Shown: positions 46,669 to 52,481 of the stretch, piece by piece
How positions within the stretch are numbered: the first letter of the stretch is position 1
How the letters are laid out: each line of letters begins with the position of its first letter
Assembly (NCBI GenBank): GCA_903893215.1
Contig: CAITLJ010000035.1
Span: forward strand, 70,283-134,282
DNA: 64,000 nucleotides
Direction of reading: 5' to 3'
Source: an uncultured Ferrovum sp.
GTDB taxonomy: Bacteria; Pseudomonadota; Gammaproteobacteria; Burkholderiales; Ferrovaceae
Notes under the pieces: model-generated
What the model was told of the DNA's origin: nothing
The model's database searches: none
What the model saw: only the letters and a program-made list of their open reading frames with translations
Made by a program: the position numbers and the translations under genes

Positions 46669-46703
46669 CAGGAACATCCTGGCAAAACAATCCGGACGGC
46701 CGA

Positions 46704-49127
46704 TTATGCCCCATTCTCTGGCGCCGCCCGATCATCCTGCGTGCCAGTCGCGCCTTCCGGTGCAACTCGCAGCATGGCCAGCACGCCCCCAGGCAGCAGG
46801 GGCTTTTCTGGTATCTGCTGGGCGCCGACCAAGCGCAGACTCAGGCCCGGCCGTCCCAGCAGCACCACGCGCAGACCGGGCATTGCCGCCAGCCGGGCAT
46901 GCACTTGCGGCAGCCCGGCAAAGCCCTGCGCCAGAATGGCCAAGGCAAACGGTGCCTCCTCCAGCGCAGGCCCAAGATCATCGGCAAGCGCCACATGCCG
47001 CACCAGCGCACCGGCGGCATGCAGCATCCGTTGCAGACTGGCGGCCGCACCGTGATGGCTTTCGATCAGCAGCACACGCAAGGGCTGTGACCGCTGAAGG
47101 ACCGGTATCACGGGGGTCGCGTCGCTGATCGCCAGCGAGAGATCAAACTGAAAGCAGGTGCCCTGCCCGAGACGGCTGTCAACGGTGATCTCACCGCCCA
47201 GCAGCTCGACCAGTTGCCGCACGATGGCCAACCCCAGGCCACTGCCGCCGAATTCGCTGGCTTGCAGTTGCTCTGCCTGACTGAAGGGTTCAAACAGGCG
47301 ATCCACATCGCGCCCACTCAACCCTGGGCCGGTATCGCGTACCGAAAAGCGCAAGTCCACGCGGCGCTCCAGCGTCCTGAGGCACTCGATCTTCAATACC
47401 ACGTCACCGCGCAGGGTGAACTTGCATGCATTTTCGGTCAGGTTCACCAGCACCTGAGTCAGGCGCATGCCGTCACCGATCAGTACGGCCGGCGTTTGCG
47501 GGTCCAGGTCGCAGACCAGTTCGACAGGCTTGTCACCCAGTCGCGGCACGCTCGCCACCAGAACATCGTGCAGCACTGTCTCGATGAAGAAAGGATGACG
47601 CTCGACCACCAACCGGCCCGCTTCGATCCGCGACAGGTCGAGGATATCTTCCACCAGCCGCAGGAGACGATGCGCTGCACCGCTCGCCTTGTCGACCTGA
47701 CCTTGCTGTGCCTCGGACAGCGGACTGCGGCGCAAGCCCGCCAGCAGGCCCAGCACGGCATTCATCGGCGTGCGGAACTCATGCGTCATGCTGGCCAGAA
47801 AGACGGTCCTGGCGCGCGCTGACTGCGACGCCTCCTGATTGAGCTGGATCAGGCGGCGCTCCGAAGCCAGCAGCTCGCGTGTACGACGGTCCACAACGTC
47901 CCGGATGGCGCGCGCGCGATACAGGCTCTGGAACTGCAACCGGGCCAGCAGCAAACTGATCAGGAGCCCTGCCAGCAGCGTCACCCGACTTGCGGTGCGC
48001 CCGGCGCGCAGATGTCCCTCCGGTGCCTGCACCACCGCCAACCAGTTGCGCCCGCCCAGTTCAAAGTGACGCTCCACGCGGAAGCCGTGCGGCACGGTGA
48101 CCGGCACCTCACCCGCCACACCGGGTGGGTATAGCCTCTGCAAACCGTCAGGAGACTGCGCATCGAACAACCGCACCGCAAGCGTCTGGCGCTGCGGCTG
48201 GACGGCTTCGACAAGGCGGTCAACACGCAACACCGCCAGCACAAACCCCCGCAAGGCCGACGGGTTGACCGGCACCGACCCGGTCAACCCGTCGCCGGCC
48301 GAGTGCGTCATTTGCGTCGGGAGGGCATACACCGGACGCGCGAAGAGTACACCGGGTGCTGCCGACGGCTCCTGCACCAGCTGGATAGGGCCAGACAGCT
48401 GCAGCTCGCCACTCGTGCGCGCCGCCTGCAGCACCTGAAGGCTCACCGGGGTGGAGCCCAGGTCGAAACCAGACGCCCGCTCGTTGGACAGTCTGGGCTC
48501 CACAAACCAGACCGGAAAATATTCGGCACGCGGCGTGATCGGCCGCAACTGCCCAACATGCACCGGATCCGCCTCCGTGAGCGCGAAACCGGCAAAGCCA
48601 TCGGCTGCAGCCCGCGCCTGGAGCACCGGCACGTCGTCTGGATGAATCAAGGGAACCCATTCCAGGGCACGGATCAGCGGTTGGCGCATCAGGATGGCGT
48701 GCGTGCTGCGGGCAAATTCAGCGCGTGTTACCTCCTTGCGCTGATCAAACAGGTTCGCCACAGCCACCACACCGTCGACGGCACGCGCCAGATTCGCCTC
48801 CAGCAGCGTCAGGCGGGCCTCTGCCTCGCTGGCGAGCGAAGCCTGCGCGGCTTGATCCTCCAGCTGCCGCACCCGGATCACCAGCACCAGCGTCACCACC
48901 AGCCCCGCCATCAACACGGCCAGCCAGGGATGGGCAGCAGGTGCACGGACCACCCGCCAGGTATTCAGCACACGCGCCACGGCGCGGAATCGATTCAGGC
49001 AGGCAAACAAGGTTTTCAAGGACGTGGCAAAAGTCGGAACGGGCAGTGAACGATGCGGGATGACCGGCAGACCGAATACCCGGGCGGGGCTGATCTTACT
49101 GAAAAAGCGACCTGACCCTGCCGACAA
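46704..49127 (-). CDS. CHASE-domain hybrid histidine kinase with degenerate receiver domain
   Basis: A membrane sensor kinase (up to 807 residues). Transmembrane segments lie at about residues 67-86 and 381-396 and enclose a periplasmic CHASE domain. A short coiled coil leads to HisKA with His449 (MTHEFRTPMNAVLG). HATPase_c follows, with the N-box VNLTENACKF, DTGPGLSG and GGSGLGLAIVRQL. A C-terminal receiver-like domain (about 683-790) starts VLLIESHHG, lacks the acidic pair, and has no Asp at the acceptor strand (ALAILAQGF). TTG 49127 is the furthest start in frame; no ATG precedes the first membrane helix, so the true start is uncertain. CHASE ligands are unknown. Confidence 0.88.
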   Translation of the reverse strand: MSAGSGRFFSKISPARVFGLPVIPHRSLPVPTFATSLKTLFACLNRFRAVARVLNTWRVVRAPAAHPWLAVLMAGLVVTLVLVIRVRQLEDQAAQASLASEAEARLTLLEANLARAVDGVVAVANLFDQRKEVTRAEFARSTHAILMRQPLIRALEWVPLIHPDDVPVLQARAAADGFAGFALTEADPVHVGQLRPITPRAEYFPVWFVEPRLSNERASGFDLGSTPVSLQVLQAARTSGELQLSGPIQLVQEPSAAPGVLFARPVYALPTQMTHSAGDGLTGSVPVNPSALRGFVLAVLRVDRLVEAVQPQRQTLAVRLFDAQSPDGLQRLYPPGVAGEVPVTVPHGFRVERHFELGGRNWLAVVQAPEGHLRAGRTASRVTLLAGLLISLLLARLQFQSLYRARAIRDVVDRRTRELLASERRLIQLNQEASQSARARTVFLASMTHEFRTPMNAVLGLLAGLRRSPLSEAQQGQVDKASGAAHRLLRLVEDILDLSRIEAGRLVVERHPFFIETVLHDVLVASVPRLGDKPVELVCDLDPQTPAVLIGDGMRLTQVLVNLTENACKFTLRGDVVLKIECLRTLERRVDLRFSVRDTGPGLSGRDVDRLFEPFSQAEQLQASEFGGSGLGLAIVRQLVELLGGEITVDSRLGQGTCFQFDLSLAISDATPVIPVLQRSQPLRVLLIESHHGAAASLQRMLHAAGALVRHVALADDLGPALEEAPFALAILAQGFAGLPQVHARLAAMPGLRVVLLGRPGLSLRLVGAQQIPEKPLLPGGVLAMLRVAPEGATGTQDDRAAPENGA

Positions 49128-49182
49128 ATTGCCGCCAGACCGCTTACAGCCATGCCGAAAGAAAGAGCCAGCAAATTTATTG

Positions 49183-49192
49183 ACTAGGCATT
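49183..49192 (+). repeat. Shared upstream decamer, copy 1
   Basis: ACTAGGCATT lies 58 bases before the DHp-like gene and recurs at 50118-50127 at a similar distance before the HTH-receiver gene. It could be a shared regulatory element; a chance match within 1 kb cannot be excluded. Confidence 0.3.
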
Positions 49193-49250
49193 AAGTAAAT
49201 CTTTGGCCTTCGCTATAGCGGCAGCGCCGGATGGTTTGCTACCCTCAGAT

Positions 49251-49988
49251 ATGGACATTGAACAACAAAAACTGCAAGCCATTGTCGATCTGGGCTTGCT
49301 CACTCGGGTCGCTTGCCACGAAATCAACAATCTCGTGGCAAGCCAGCAAGGGTTTTTGCGCATCTTGCAACGGTCATCACCCGACGACCCCGGCCGGGGG
49401 CGCTGGCAGGAGCAATTGCTGGCGGTGAGCAACGAATTGGCCATCCTGGTGCGCGGGTTGCAGTCACGCGCGCATGCTTCGGCACCTTCTCCCGGGCTGA
49501 ACCCTGGCTGGCAAGCCGGCAGCGCGGTGCGCGTGATTGCCGACGCGACCAGGGCCGCGGGTGCCGAACCGGGCGAACTGGAAATCCAGCGCATGGTCGG
49601 CCTGCTGGCCGAACTGGCTGCCCTGAACGAGCAGACCCTGCCCACGCATTGCCAACTCGGCGCCCTTCCCGATCTGGGCGGTGCTGGTGAACCTATTTTC
49701 GGTATGCTGGCCGACCCCTTCGAAGCGGTCGCGGTGAGCTTGACGTGCATGCAACCTGACCAGGCCGTCGAGGCGCTGCGTCGCGCCGCCGACGTGATCC
49801 TGCCGGGCGTGGCGGCCGGCGAGACGGCCTGGCGCTGCGCCTTGCTGGCGTCATTGCTGCGCCAGGCGAGCGCCGATGTGGTGGTTGAACATGCCCACGA
49901 AGGAATAGTGCGACTGCACTTGCTGCTACCACGACGCGCCGCCCATGAGGCCTTGCCACGCAACACTAAACCCCCTATAGGGACTTGA
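49251..49988 (+). CDS. Degenerate histidine-kinase-like (DHp/ChpT-like) protein
   Basis: A 245-residue soluble protein without a clear named family. The N-terminal helix pair resembles a kinase dimerisation and phosphotransfer domain: ACHEINNLVASQQGFLRIL, with His23 in an H-E-I-N-N box. The rest has a HATPase-like ending (EGIVRLHLLLPRR) but no N-box Asn, D-x-G-x-G or glycine-rich lid, so ATP binding is unlikely. This layout recalls the phosphotransferase ChpT. ATG 49251 is preferred over the open frame from TTG 49203. It lies divergent from the hybrid kinase gene and upstream of HTH-receiver and HDOD genes. Phosphotransfer is inferred. Confidence 0.6.
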   Translation: MDIEQQKLQAIVDLGLLTRVACHEINNLVASQQGFLRILQRSSPDDPGRGRWQEQLLAVSNELAILVRGLQSRAHASAPSPGLNPGWQAGSAVRVIADATRAAGAEPGELEIQRMVGLLAELAALNEQTLPTHCQLGALPDLGGAGEPIFGMLADPFEAVAVSLTCMQPDQAVEALRRAADVILPGVAAGETAWRCALLASLLRQASADVVVEHAHEGIVRLHLLLPRRAAHEALPRNTKPPIGT

Positions 49989-50190
49989 CTTTTTAGGTTC
50001 AAACGAATTAAACAGTGTTTACCCCTGCAGAATGATTTGAATATCGCAGGTTCCAGGAATAGAATCGAGGATATAGTTTGAACGCGCAGCGGATTGAATA
50101 GTACAAAACTCAATCCAACTAGGCATTGCTGGAGGTTCAAAACCCAAAATTCATTCCGAAATATTCAGTAATCTCAGGCCGTCCCATTAC
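49989..50190. promoter_or_regulatory. AT-rich spacer with repeated GTTCAAA elements upstream of HTH-receiver gene
   Basis: About 200 bases, markedly more AT-rich than the flanks. GTTCAAAC (49997-50004) has an exact inverse GTTTGAAC (50076-50083), and GGTTCAAA recurs directly at 50135-50142. The decamer ACTAGGCATT (50118-50127) is shared with the spacer before the DHp-like gene. These are candidate sites for the HTH-receiver protein itself. No clear sigma-70 pair was recognised. Confidence 0.45.
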
Positions 50191-50772
50191 ATGACCAAAA
50201 CCGATCTACGCGACAAGAGCTATCTGACGCCCAACCAGGTAGCAGAGCGACTGATGGTGTCGCCAATCACCGTGCGCGGCTGGGCGCTGCGAGGATTACT
50301 TAAGGCAGAAGTCACGCCCGGCGGCCATCGTCGCTTTCTGATCTCCGAAGTCGAACGCTTCTCCCGCGAACGCCACACGCATGACCGTCAGCGACCGCAG
50401 CGGGTGCTGATCGTCGATGATAACCAGAGCCTGGCGCGCTACCTGCAGGACTTTCTCATCTCCAGCGGCTACAGCACCGAAACCTCCTTTGACGGCTTTG
50501 ACGCCGGCTGGAAGATGCAATCGTTCCAGCCTGACATCCTGCTGCTCGACCTGATGATGCCGCGCCTGAATGGCTTTGACGTCTGCCGCCAGGTGCGCAA
50601 CAACCCGGACACCCGTCATGTACGCGTGATCGCCATGACCGGCTATCCCAGCCCGAGTAACGAAAACCGCATCCTTGCCGAGGGTGCCGAGCGATGCCTG
50701 AACAAGCCGATCGATGAAGCCCTGCTGATGAGCGCACTCGGTGCCGCAGTGATCGGAGACCAGGGCCGCTGA
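50191..50772 (+). CDS. MerR/excisionase-type HTH protein with C-terminal receiver domain
   Basis: A 193-residue response regulator with reversed order. Residues 10-60 are a MerR/BldC-like winged HTH (YLTPNQVAERLMVSPITVRGWALRG with TPGGHRRF). Residues 69-185 form a complete receiver domain: VLIVDDN acidic pair, acceptor Asp in LLLDLMMPRLNG, Thr in AMTGYP and Lys in CLNKPID. It can thus be phosphorylated, unlike the receiver-like tail of the nearby hybrid kinase. The gene lies between the DHp-like and HDOD genes. DNA-binding control is inferred. Confidence 0.88.
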   Translation: MTKTDLRDKSYLTPNQVAERLMVSPITVRGWALRGLLKAEVTPGGHRRFLISEVERFSRERHTHDRQRPQRVLIVDDNQSLARYLQDFLISSGYSTETSFDGFDAGWKMQSFQPDILLLDLMMPRLNGFDVCRQVRNNPDTRHVRVIAMTGYPSPSNENRILAEGAERCLNKPIDEALLMSALGAAVIGDQGR

Positions 50773-50794
50773 ACGGCAGGCGCGGCGGGCAGAC

Positions 50795-51691
50795 ATGAAT
50801 CCGTATCTTGACGAATTGATGTCGCAGCCCGCCAAGTTGCCTACGGTCCCCGAAGTGGTCCGGGGCATCATGGAGAGTTTTGGCGACGAGCAACTGTCGA
50901 TCGAAACCCTCAGCCAGCAAATCAGCCTCGACCCGGTGATTGCGGCAAAGCTTCTGCGCCTTGCCAACTCCGCCTACTACCGCAGTCAGCGCCAGATCCT
51001 GAGCGTGGATGAATGCCTGTTGCTGCTCGGCATGACGACCGTGCGCAATGTGGTGCTGGGCTGCGGACTCAAAGAGACCTTCGCTCCCCTGCCGGGTCTC
51101 GATCTGCGCGGGCTCTGGCGACACAGCGTCCATACCGCCTGCGTTGCCCGCTGGCTGGCGCGCGCGATGGGCCACGACGCCGAACTGGCGTTCACGGTCG
51201 GACTTATGCAGTCGATCGGACAACTGCTCATCCACAAGGCCCTGCCCGAGCGGGCGGCGCAGATTTCGGCGGTGATCGAATTGCAGGCACCCGGACGTGC
51301 GGCGATTGAACAGCGCGCCCTGCATTTCCATTTTGGCGAGGTCTCTGCAGCCCTCGCGCGCAGCTGGAACCTGCCGGAAGGCCTGGCTGCCACGCTCGCC
51401 GAGGTGCCTCTGCCCCTGCGCAACCAGACCCCGGACCGAGTGGCCGCCATCGTTCATCTCGCTTCCTGGTGCGCATGGCGCAGTACTGCCACGGCGGGTG
51501 CAGCTTCCACCCTCAGCAATGCGAGCGACACCGGATACCCTGCCGGTGTGGCGGAAGCGATCGGGCTGGGTTGGTGCTGGTGGCCCGCCTCCCTCGACGC
51601 GCTCGCCCCCGCCGGGCTTCCACCAGGACGCCGCGGCCGTCTGCCGGAGGTGGGGGAAGTGACGGCTGGGCTGGAAGAATTGTTGCACTGA
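50795..51691 (+). CDS. HDOD domain protein
   Basis: A 298-residue HDOD protein. The domain covers about residues 12-210: LPTVPEVVRGIMESF start, LSQQISLDPVIAAKLLRLANSAYYR, and LLLLGMTTVRNVVLG. The HD position reads GLMQSIGQLLIHKA, where Gln-Ser replaces the catalytic His-Asp, as expected for this non-catalytic relative of HD-GYP domains. HDOD proteins are signalling adaptors. The C-terminal 70 residues are Gly/Pro/Trp-rich and unassigned. It follows the HTH-receiver gene by 22 bases. Confidence 0.88.
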   Translation: MNPYLDELMSQPAKLPTVPEVVRGIMESFGDEQLSIETLSQQISLDPVIAAKLLRLANSAYYRSQRQILSVDECLLLLGMTTVRNVVLGCGLKETFAPLPGLDLRGLWRHSVHTACVARWLARAMGHDAELAFTVGLMQSIGQLLIHKALPERAAQISAVIELQAPGRAAIEQRALHFHFGEVSAALARSWNLPEGLAATLAEVPLPLRNQTPDRVAAIVHLASWCAWRSTATAGAASTLSNASDTGYPAGVAEAIGLGWCWWPASLDALAPAGLPPGRRGRLPEVGEVTAGLEELLH

Positions 51692-51764: not shown

Positions 51765-52481
51765 ATGACCATAGAAATCAGCGAAGCTGCCGGCGTGCGC
51801 AGCCTGCACTTCGGCACCCCATGGGTGCAGGGTGCCATGCGCGTGGCGCGCCCATGGGCACTCGAACTGGAATACACCCGCGACATGTTGCTGCCGCTGC
51901 TGCTCCGCCCCGATGACTGGCCGCAGCGGGTGCTGATGGTTGGTCTGGGCAGTGGGTCGCTGGCCAAATTCCTGTATCGCCATCGTCCGCATTGCATGCT
52001 GCACGTGGTTGAGCTTGACCCCCAGGTGATTCAGGCGGCCCACCAGCATTTCAAGTTGCCTGCTGCGGATGCCCGCTTGCAGGTCAGTGCCGCCGATGGC
52101 TTCGAATGGGTGAAGCAGGACACTGAATGCTACGACCTGATCCTGCTCGACGCCTTTGATCTCAATGCACGTGCCCACCGTCTCGAGTCAGCGGAATTTT
52201 ATGCAGCCTGCCAACAACGTCTGCGGCCGGAGGGCTGGATCGCCTGTAACCTGCTCACGCTGCATCGCAGCCATGCCGCCACGCGGCGGGCCCTTGCCAG
52301 CGTATTCGGCAACGGACTCCATTTGCTGCCCCCCTGCGCGGAAGGCAATGTGGTGGCACTGCTTGCCTCTGCGCCGTGGCAAGCGCCAGACTTCAGCGAA
52401 CTGCGCACACGCGCTGCGCTGTTGCGCAAACAAACCCAACTCAGCCTATTGCCGTTGATTTCACGTATGGAACAGTGCTGA
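51765..52481 (+). CDS. Spermidine synthase-like protein
   Basis: A 238-residue Rossmann-fold protein of the polyamine aminopropyltransferase family. The cofactor loop is VLMVGLGSGSLAKFL, the acidic residue is in VVELDPQVIQAA, and the following segments read VSAADGFEWV and YDLILLDAF. The active-site motif is GSGS rather than the usual GGGxG, and the N-terminal beta domain is short. It may therefore be a methyltransferase-like relative rather than a true spermidine synthase. It is followed after 19 bases by the glutathione peroxidase gene. Confidence 0.78.
   Translation: MTIEISEAAGVRSLHFGTPWVQGAMRVARPWALELEYTRDMLLPLLLRPDDWPQRVLMVGLGSGSLAKFLYRHRPHCMLHVVELDPQVIQAAHQHFKLPAADARLQVSAADGFEWVKQDTECYDLILLDAFDLNARAHRLESAEFYAACQQRLRPEGWIACNLLTLHRSHAATRRALASVFGNGLHLLPPCAEGNVVALLASAPWQAPDFSELRTRAALLRKQTQLSLLPLISRMEQC

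Follow-up and report, generated by a model that had tools for sequence, protein, structure and literature searches.

The window, by which we mean the whole stretch of 64,000 nucleotides that was analysed, belongs to a genus of Ferrovum-like bacteria and contains a signalling cluster (46704 to 51691) in which one gene encodes a soluble protein of 245 amino acids with a DHp hairpin and a pseudo-CA domain. We propose that this protein arose in place by reduction of an HPK4-type kinase and serves as a ChpT-like phosphotransferase or phosphatase for the HTH-receiver protein encoded beside it, and that the adjoining CHASE kinase is the phosphate source; in our judgement this proposal is about evenly balanced between right and wrong. 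The cluster in the window would be derived from a module that recurs in Gammaproteobacteria, in which a transcription factor of HTH-receiver type goes with REC-HD-GYP and a kinase of HPK4 type (HDFNN).

Anatomy of the cluster and its conservation in the genus

The four-gene anatomy described in the original prediction was confirmed, in ORF coordinates as well as in domain content, by Pfam, alignments and structural models. The CHASE-domain membrane sensor kinase (46704..49127, minus strand) carries a CHASE domain (residues 132-333, Pfam 1.9e-37), HisKA (440-504, 1e-17, with H449 in HEFRTP) and HATPase_c (551-665, 6.6e-27); its core is intact and the kinase boxes are invariant across five genomes. 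In the tail of this kinase (46758..47081, minus strand) Pfam finds no Response_reg match. The homologous tail from the congener G003 was modelled with AlphaFold (pLDDT 72), with its elements in receiver order, and the best structural matches of this model in Foldseek are receiver domains. Since the alignments show that the Asp at the acceptor position is absent in five of five genus members, the tail combines a predicted receiver fold with a replaced acceptor Asp and can be regarded as an aspartate-less receiver, as had been suggested. Such a domain would be regulatory and would not act as a relay domain.

Divergently from the kinase are transcribed the DHp gene (49251..49988, plus strand), which probably starts at ATG 49251 and not at TTG 49203, because its relatives start there, and the HTH-receiver gene (50191..50772, plus strand). 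The latter encodes a BldC/MerR-type HTH (HTH_17, 4e-8) and a receiver (Response_reg, 1.2e-22) that is intact in D76, D77, D120, T150 and K172, the phospho-acceptor being D120 (codon 50548-50550). Against the BldC family (NF033787) the protein reaches 49.6 bits, over the HTH only, below the curated cut-off of 77 bits, so that by this measure its HTH is related to BldC without being a member of that family. The intergenic gaps next to the HTH-receiver gene (90-210 bp in the genus) leave room for a promoter of its own. In the window the 10-mer ACTAGGCATT is present in the intergenic region upstream of the DHp gene (about 49180) and again in the one upstream of the HTH-receiver gene (about 50120), and it is not conserved in congeners; a search for an upstream DNA motif common to the clusters of the five species gave nothing convincing.

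The last gene of the cluster (50795..51691, plus strand) encodes an HDOD protein (Pfam 2.3e-48; alignment) in which the catalytic HD pair is replaced by Q139-S140. The pair is absent from the HDOD proteins of three genus members, which read MQSIGQ (window), MQGIGQ and MLGLGQ. The gene was found in three of the five genus genomes, with no orthologue elsewhere in the genomes of the two members lacking it, which rules out HDOD as an obligatory partner; the role of output partner first assigned to this protein is weakened accordingly, the more so as its catalytic residues are missing. Outside the genus, one HTH-receiver locus (L178:7844-11500) has, near the HTH-receiver and kinase genes, an HDOD gene with an intact HDIG. 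On the 3' side of the cluster lies a polyamine aminopropyltransferase-like gene (51765-52481), whose position beside the HTH-receiver and HDOD genes is kept in several congeners.

The DHp protein was found only in the five members of the window's genus (61 genomes searched; the genus genomes are multi-contig drafts and the named ones are MAGs). All five share one layout, in which the CHASE kinase is divergent from the DHp protein followed by the HTH-receiver, and a conserved signalling unit, as foreseen, can therefore be recognised in these three genes. The four-gene combination was not found outside the genus, and a search for plasmid copies gave no match.

In four congeners a REC-HD-GYP gene lies between the kinase and nadC, and the kinase has a longer tail with an extra C-terminal helical module. 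Both are missing from the window, where the kinase stop lies 26 bp (46678..46703) from nadC (46677, minus strand), and no full-length orthologue of the REC-HD-GYP gene was found elsewhere in the window genome. The window species thus carries a deletion of the REC-HD-GYP gene and of the helical module that are kept in L011, L012, L013 and L014. With REC-HD-GYP went the one Asp-bearing receiver that the cluster had besides the HTH-receiver, whereas the DHp protein was retained with all its key residues. The REC-HD-GYP protein of the congener G001 (L011:1495-2592) keeps its receiver and has a degenerate HD-GYP domain, unlike those of G002-G004. A PilZ gene accompanies REC-HD-GYP in G003, with a similar gene in G004; in two congeners (L012:13513-14280 and L013:5870-6634, the Pfam match being tested in L013) this PilZ/YcgR-like gene separates REC-HD-GYP from nadC and hints that the cluster is connected with c-di-GMP.

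Ancestry of the DHp protein

Pfam recognises in the DHp protein a weak HisKA match alone (E 0.0065). The protein consists of a helical hairpin (residues 2-75) and a degenerate CA domain (about 92-228); H23 (codon 49317-49319), E24 and N27 are invariant in five of five sequences, and in none of the five are the ATP-binding N, G1, F and G2 boxes recognisable. This agrees with the first description of the protein as soluble, DHp-like and without an ATP site. The AlphaFold model (pLDDT 84, pTM 0.79) predicts with confidence a DHp hairpin and, after it, a CA-like domain, and with this model the top three PDB matches in Foldseek are ChpT of Caulobacter, followed by kinases. The hairpin, the CA-like fold and the missing ATP boxes together correspond to the design of ChpT.

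Profile comparison points to another origin. With hhalign, the DHp profile matched 24 HPK4-like kinases at 99.2% over 227 columns, i.e. over its whole length, the ChpT family (22 sequences) at 8% and the HTH-receiver or HDOD proteins at less than 1%, these percentages being from single templates and meaningful relative to one another. Membership of the ChpT family (PF10090) was ruled out by this low value and by the lack of a PF10090 match: when the five genus genomes were searched with that profile at E<=10, the DHp gene was not among the matches. The protein therefore shares homology of the DHp-CA core with HisKA kinases of HPK4-like type and lacks their ATP boxes; from sequence and model, we regard it as a DHp/pseudo-CA protein of ChpT design and HPK4-like ancestry that stands outside the ChpT family. 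In the tree the DHp proteins fall within the HDFNN kinase clade (support 98/93), on a very long branch (6.3), and descent from the adjoining CHASE kinase is rejected (AU p 0.008).

Among other genomes, orthologues of the HTH-receiver (E <= 1e-25) are present in 7 of the 398 searched within the order and in 26 of 368 of the class. At 32 gammaproteobacterial HTH-receiver loci outside the genus, an HPK4-type kinase (E < 1e-55) was found in 17, REC-HD-GYP in 12 and both in 8, and 17 of 18 kinases adjoining the HTH-receiver form one clade (support 98/99), which is not expected from a chance assortment of nearby kinases. The set of HTH-receiver, REC-HD-GYP and HPK4-type kinase recurs in many gammaproteobacterial families (L135, L137, L139, L167, L171, L181, L184, L186), and a limited literature search found no published description of this module. 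The HTH-receiver loci of genus g2 of the same family, at about 30% identity too distant for use as orthologues, showed no DHp-only gene.

At the gammaproteobacterial loci with an HPK4 kinase, this kinase occupies the slot beside the HTH-receiver that is held in the window's genus by the DHp protein. The DHp profile leads to the same places: five of its seven best genomes other than the window's are among the 7 HTH-receiver genomes of 398 (hypergeometric p 5e-9), and the matches of the two profiles, obtained in independent searches, lie about 2-3 kb apart. In this search of 399 genomes at most seven candidates per genome were scored, so distant DHp-only genes may have escaped. Helix 1 adds a shared detail: the residues S, G and F/Y at H+8, H+11 and H+12 are common to 12 of 17 neighbour kinases and to none of 18 others, by a motif picked after seeing the data, and are present in four of the five DHp proteins. 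The face of helix 1 that carries these positions is the docking side for response regulators.

In the tree the DHp proteins lie outside the clade of neighbour kinases, and a topology that unites the two groups is rejected at a borderline level (AU p 0.048). Descent from a neighbour kinase therefore depends on synteny and profile rank, which argue for reduction in place, the tree being neutral to slightly against it. The event that we would reconstruct for this genus is the conversion, in place, of an HPK4 kinase encoded next to the HTH-receiver into a soluble protein with a DHp hairpin and a dead CA domain.

Direction of phosphate flow

HisKA proteins need the acidic residue at H+1 to act as kinases, and Thr or Asn at H+4 to act as phosphatases (PMC3510030). 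An ATP-site-less protein that retains H, E and N would be compatible with phosphotransfer, with phosphatase activity or with both. The anatomy, the conservation, the predicted fold, the HPK4-like ancestry and the lineage deletion are computed results, and from these we infer the in-place descent, the partners, the direction of phosphate flow and any target genes. We suggest that the DHp protein docks on the HTH-receiver via its helical hairpin and that it either dephosphorylates this partner by means of the N at H+4 or uses H23 for phosphate exchange. The likely ATP-using donor is the CHASE kinase, which is transcribed divergently.

The original prediction had placed these proteins in a linear relay. 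In phosphorelays phosphate is not known to pass directly from His to His, so that transfer from the His of the CHASE kinase to that of the DHp protein requires an intervening receiver. No Asp-bearing receiver joins the two in the window, where REC-HD-GYP, which might have been the intermediate, is gone, and a linear relay inside the cluster is accordingly not supported. Of the two roles first offered for the DHp protein, that of phosphatase is compatible with the invariant H-E-x-x-N, and that of intermediate in such a relay is not supported. With the REC-HD-GYP gene and the kinase module deleted, the HTH-receiver is the sole phosphorylatable receiver of the window cluster, and for this reason we slightly favour a phosphatase or sink role for the DHp protein here. 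On the simplest reading for the window species, phosphate would go from the CHASE kinase to the HTH-receiver, a step that the DHp protein would tune by dephosphorylation or by exchange with unlinked receivers. In the congeners, REC-HD-GYP could be the receiver between kinase and DHp protein.

A different reading, possible though rather doubtful, takes the DHp protein for a genuine histidine phosphotransferase like ChpT or PhyT. It would supply the HTH-receiver with phosphate drawn from a second receiver, which would be REC-HD-GYP in the congeners and an unlinked protein here. The first rank of ChpT by fold and the invariance of H23 agree with this reading, as do the well-scoring REC-HD-GYP receiver in the cluster of four congeners, the many unlinked receivers of the genome and the precedent of PhyT, a degenerate kinase that acts as a phosphotransferase (PMC5898713). 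Yet the DHp protein and its key residues persist in the window without REC-HD-GYP, and no intermediate receiver was identified in the window species.

In G003 and G004 there is a 4-bp overlap between the kinase gene and the REC-HD-GYP gene, as cognate pairs may have, and REC-HD-GYP, not the HTH-receiver, may be the receiver cognate to the CHASE kinase in congeners. Taken together with the gaps that permit a separate HTH-receiver promoter, this could mean that two systems share one divergent promoter region, the first pairing the CHASE kinase with REC-HD-GYP, the second made up of the DHp protein and the HTH-receiver and served by an unlinked kinase. We consider this unlikely, as the divergent pairing is kept in five of five genomes, REC-HD-GYP accompanies the HTH-receiver in other families, and the CHASE kinase was retained after the loss of REC-HD-GYP.

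The DHp protein evolves fast, with 28-44% identity to the window protein within the genus, while its presumed partner, the HTH-receiver, hardly changes (73-90%); this would also fit relaxed constraint. It is nevertheless improbable that a protein which has lost its catalytic domain is here a decaying kinase remnant without a role, or a mere scaffold sequestering the HTH-receiver, since its frame stays open in all five diverged species, dN is below dS (dN/dS about 0.44-0.70, rough values with dS near-saturated), the invariant residues cluster at the H-box and include H, E and N, and the predicted fold is confident.

Comparison with known systems

The reduction in place proposed here, if true, would be a captured intermediate between a two-component system and a multi-protein relay. 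Few degenerate-kinase phosphotransferases are known (Spo0B, ChpT, PhyT) and their origins are mostly guesswork, while a full kinase in the matching slot beside the HTH-receiver outside the genus makes the states before and after comparable and testable, within a module of HTH-receiver, REC-HD-GYP and HPK4 kinase that appears widespread. We put forward tentatively, at somewhat short of even chances, that a ChpT-like phosphotransferase or phosphatase arose independently in Betaproteobacteria, when the kinase cognate to the conserved HTH-receiver lost its ATP-binding half in place and an unrelated CHASE kinase became the donor.

The HPK4 kinases at HTH-receiver loci (L135, L137, L138, L139, L181, L184) resemble the DHp protein in their slot, in the NN after the His and in the helix-1 positions, but retain sensor domains and an ATP-binding CA domain; those of L135 and L138 also have a C-terminal receiver with Asp. 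The aspartate-less receivers described previously (PMC4395418) share with the tail of the CHASE kinase a receiver fold without acceptor Asp; there the domain is part of a response regulator, whereas here it ends a sensor kinase.

ChpT has a DHp hairpin and a CA-like domain and does not use ATP (PMC3433190). The DHp protein is similar to it in both parts, in the CH(D/E) motif at the phospho-His and as its top Foldseek match; it differs in its Asn at H+4, where ChpT has mostly Ser, in its HPK4-like ancestry, in its HTH-receiver neighbour and in having no PF10090 match. In PhyT/PhyP of Sphingomonas, a degenerate kinase initially taken as a phosphatase proved to be a phosphotransferase, and Spo0B is mentioned there as a further degenerate-kinase precedent (PMC5898713). 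As with the DHp protein, a kinase with a degenerate ATPase is encoded at the locus of the regulator under its control; PhyT, however, is membrane-anchored with HRxxN, while the DHp protein is soluble with HExxN.
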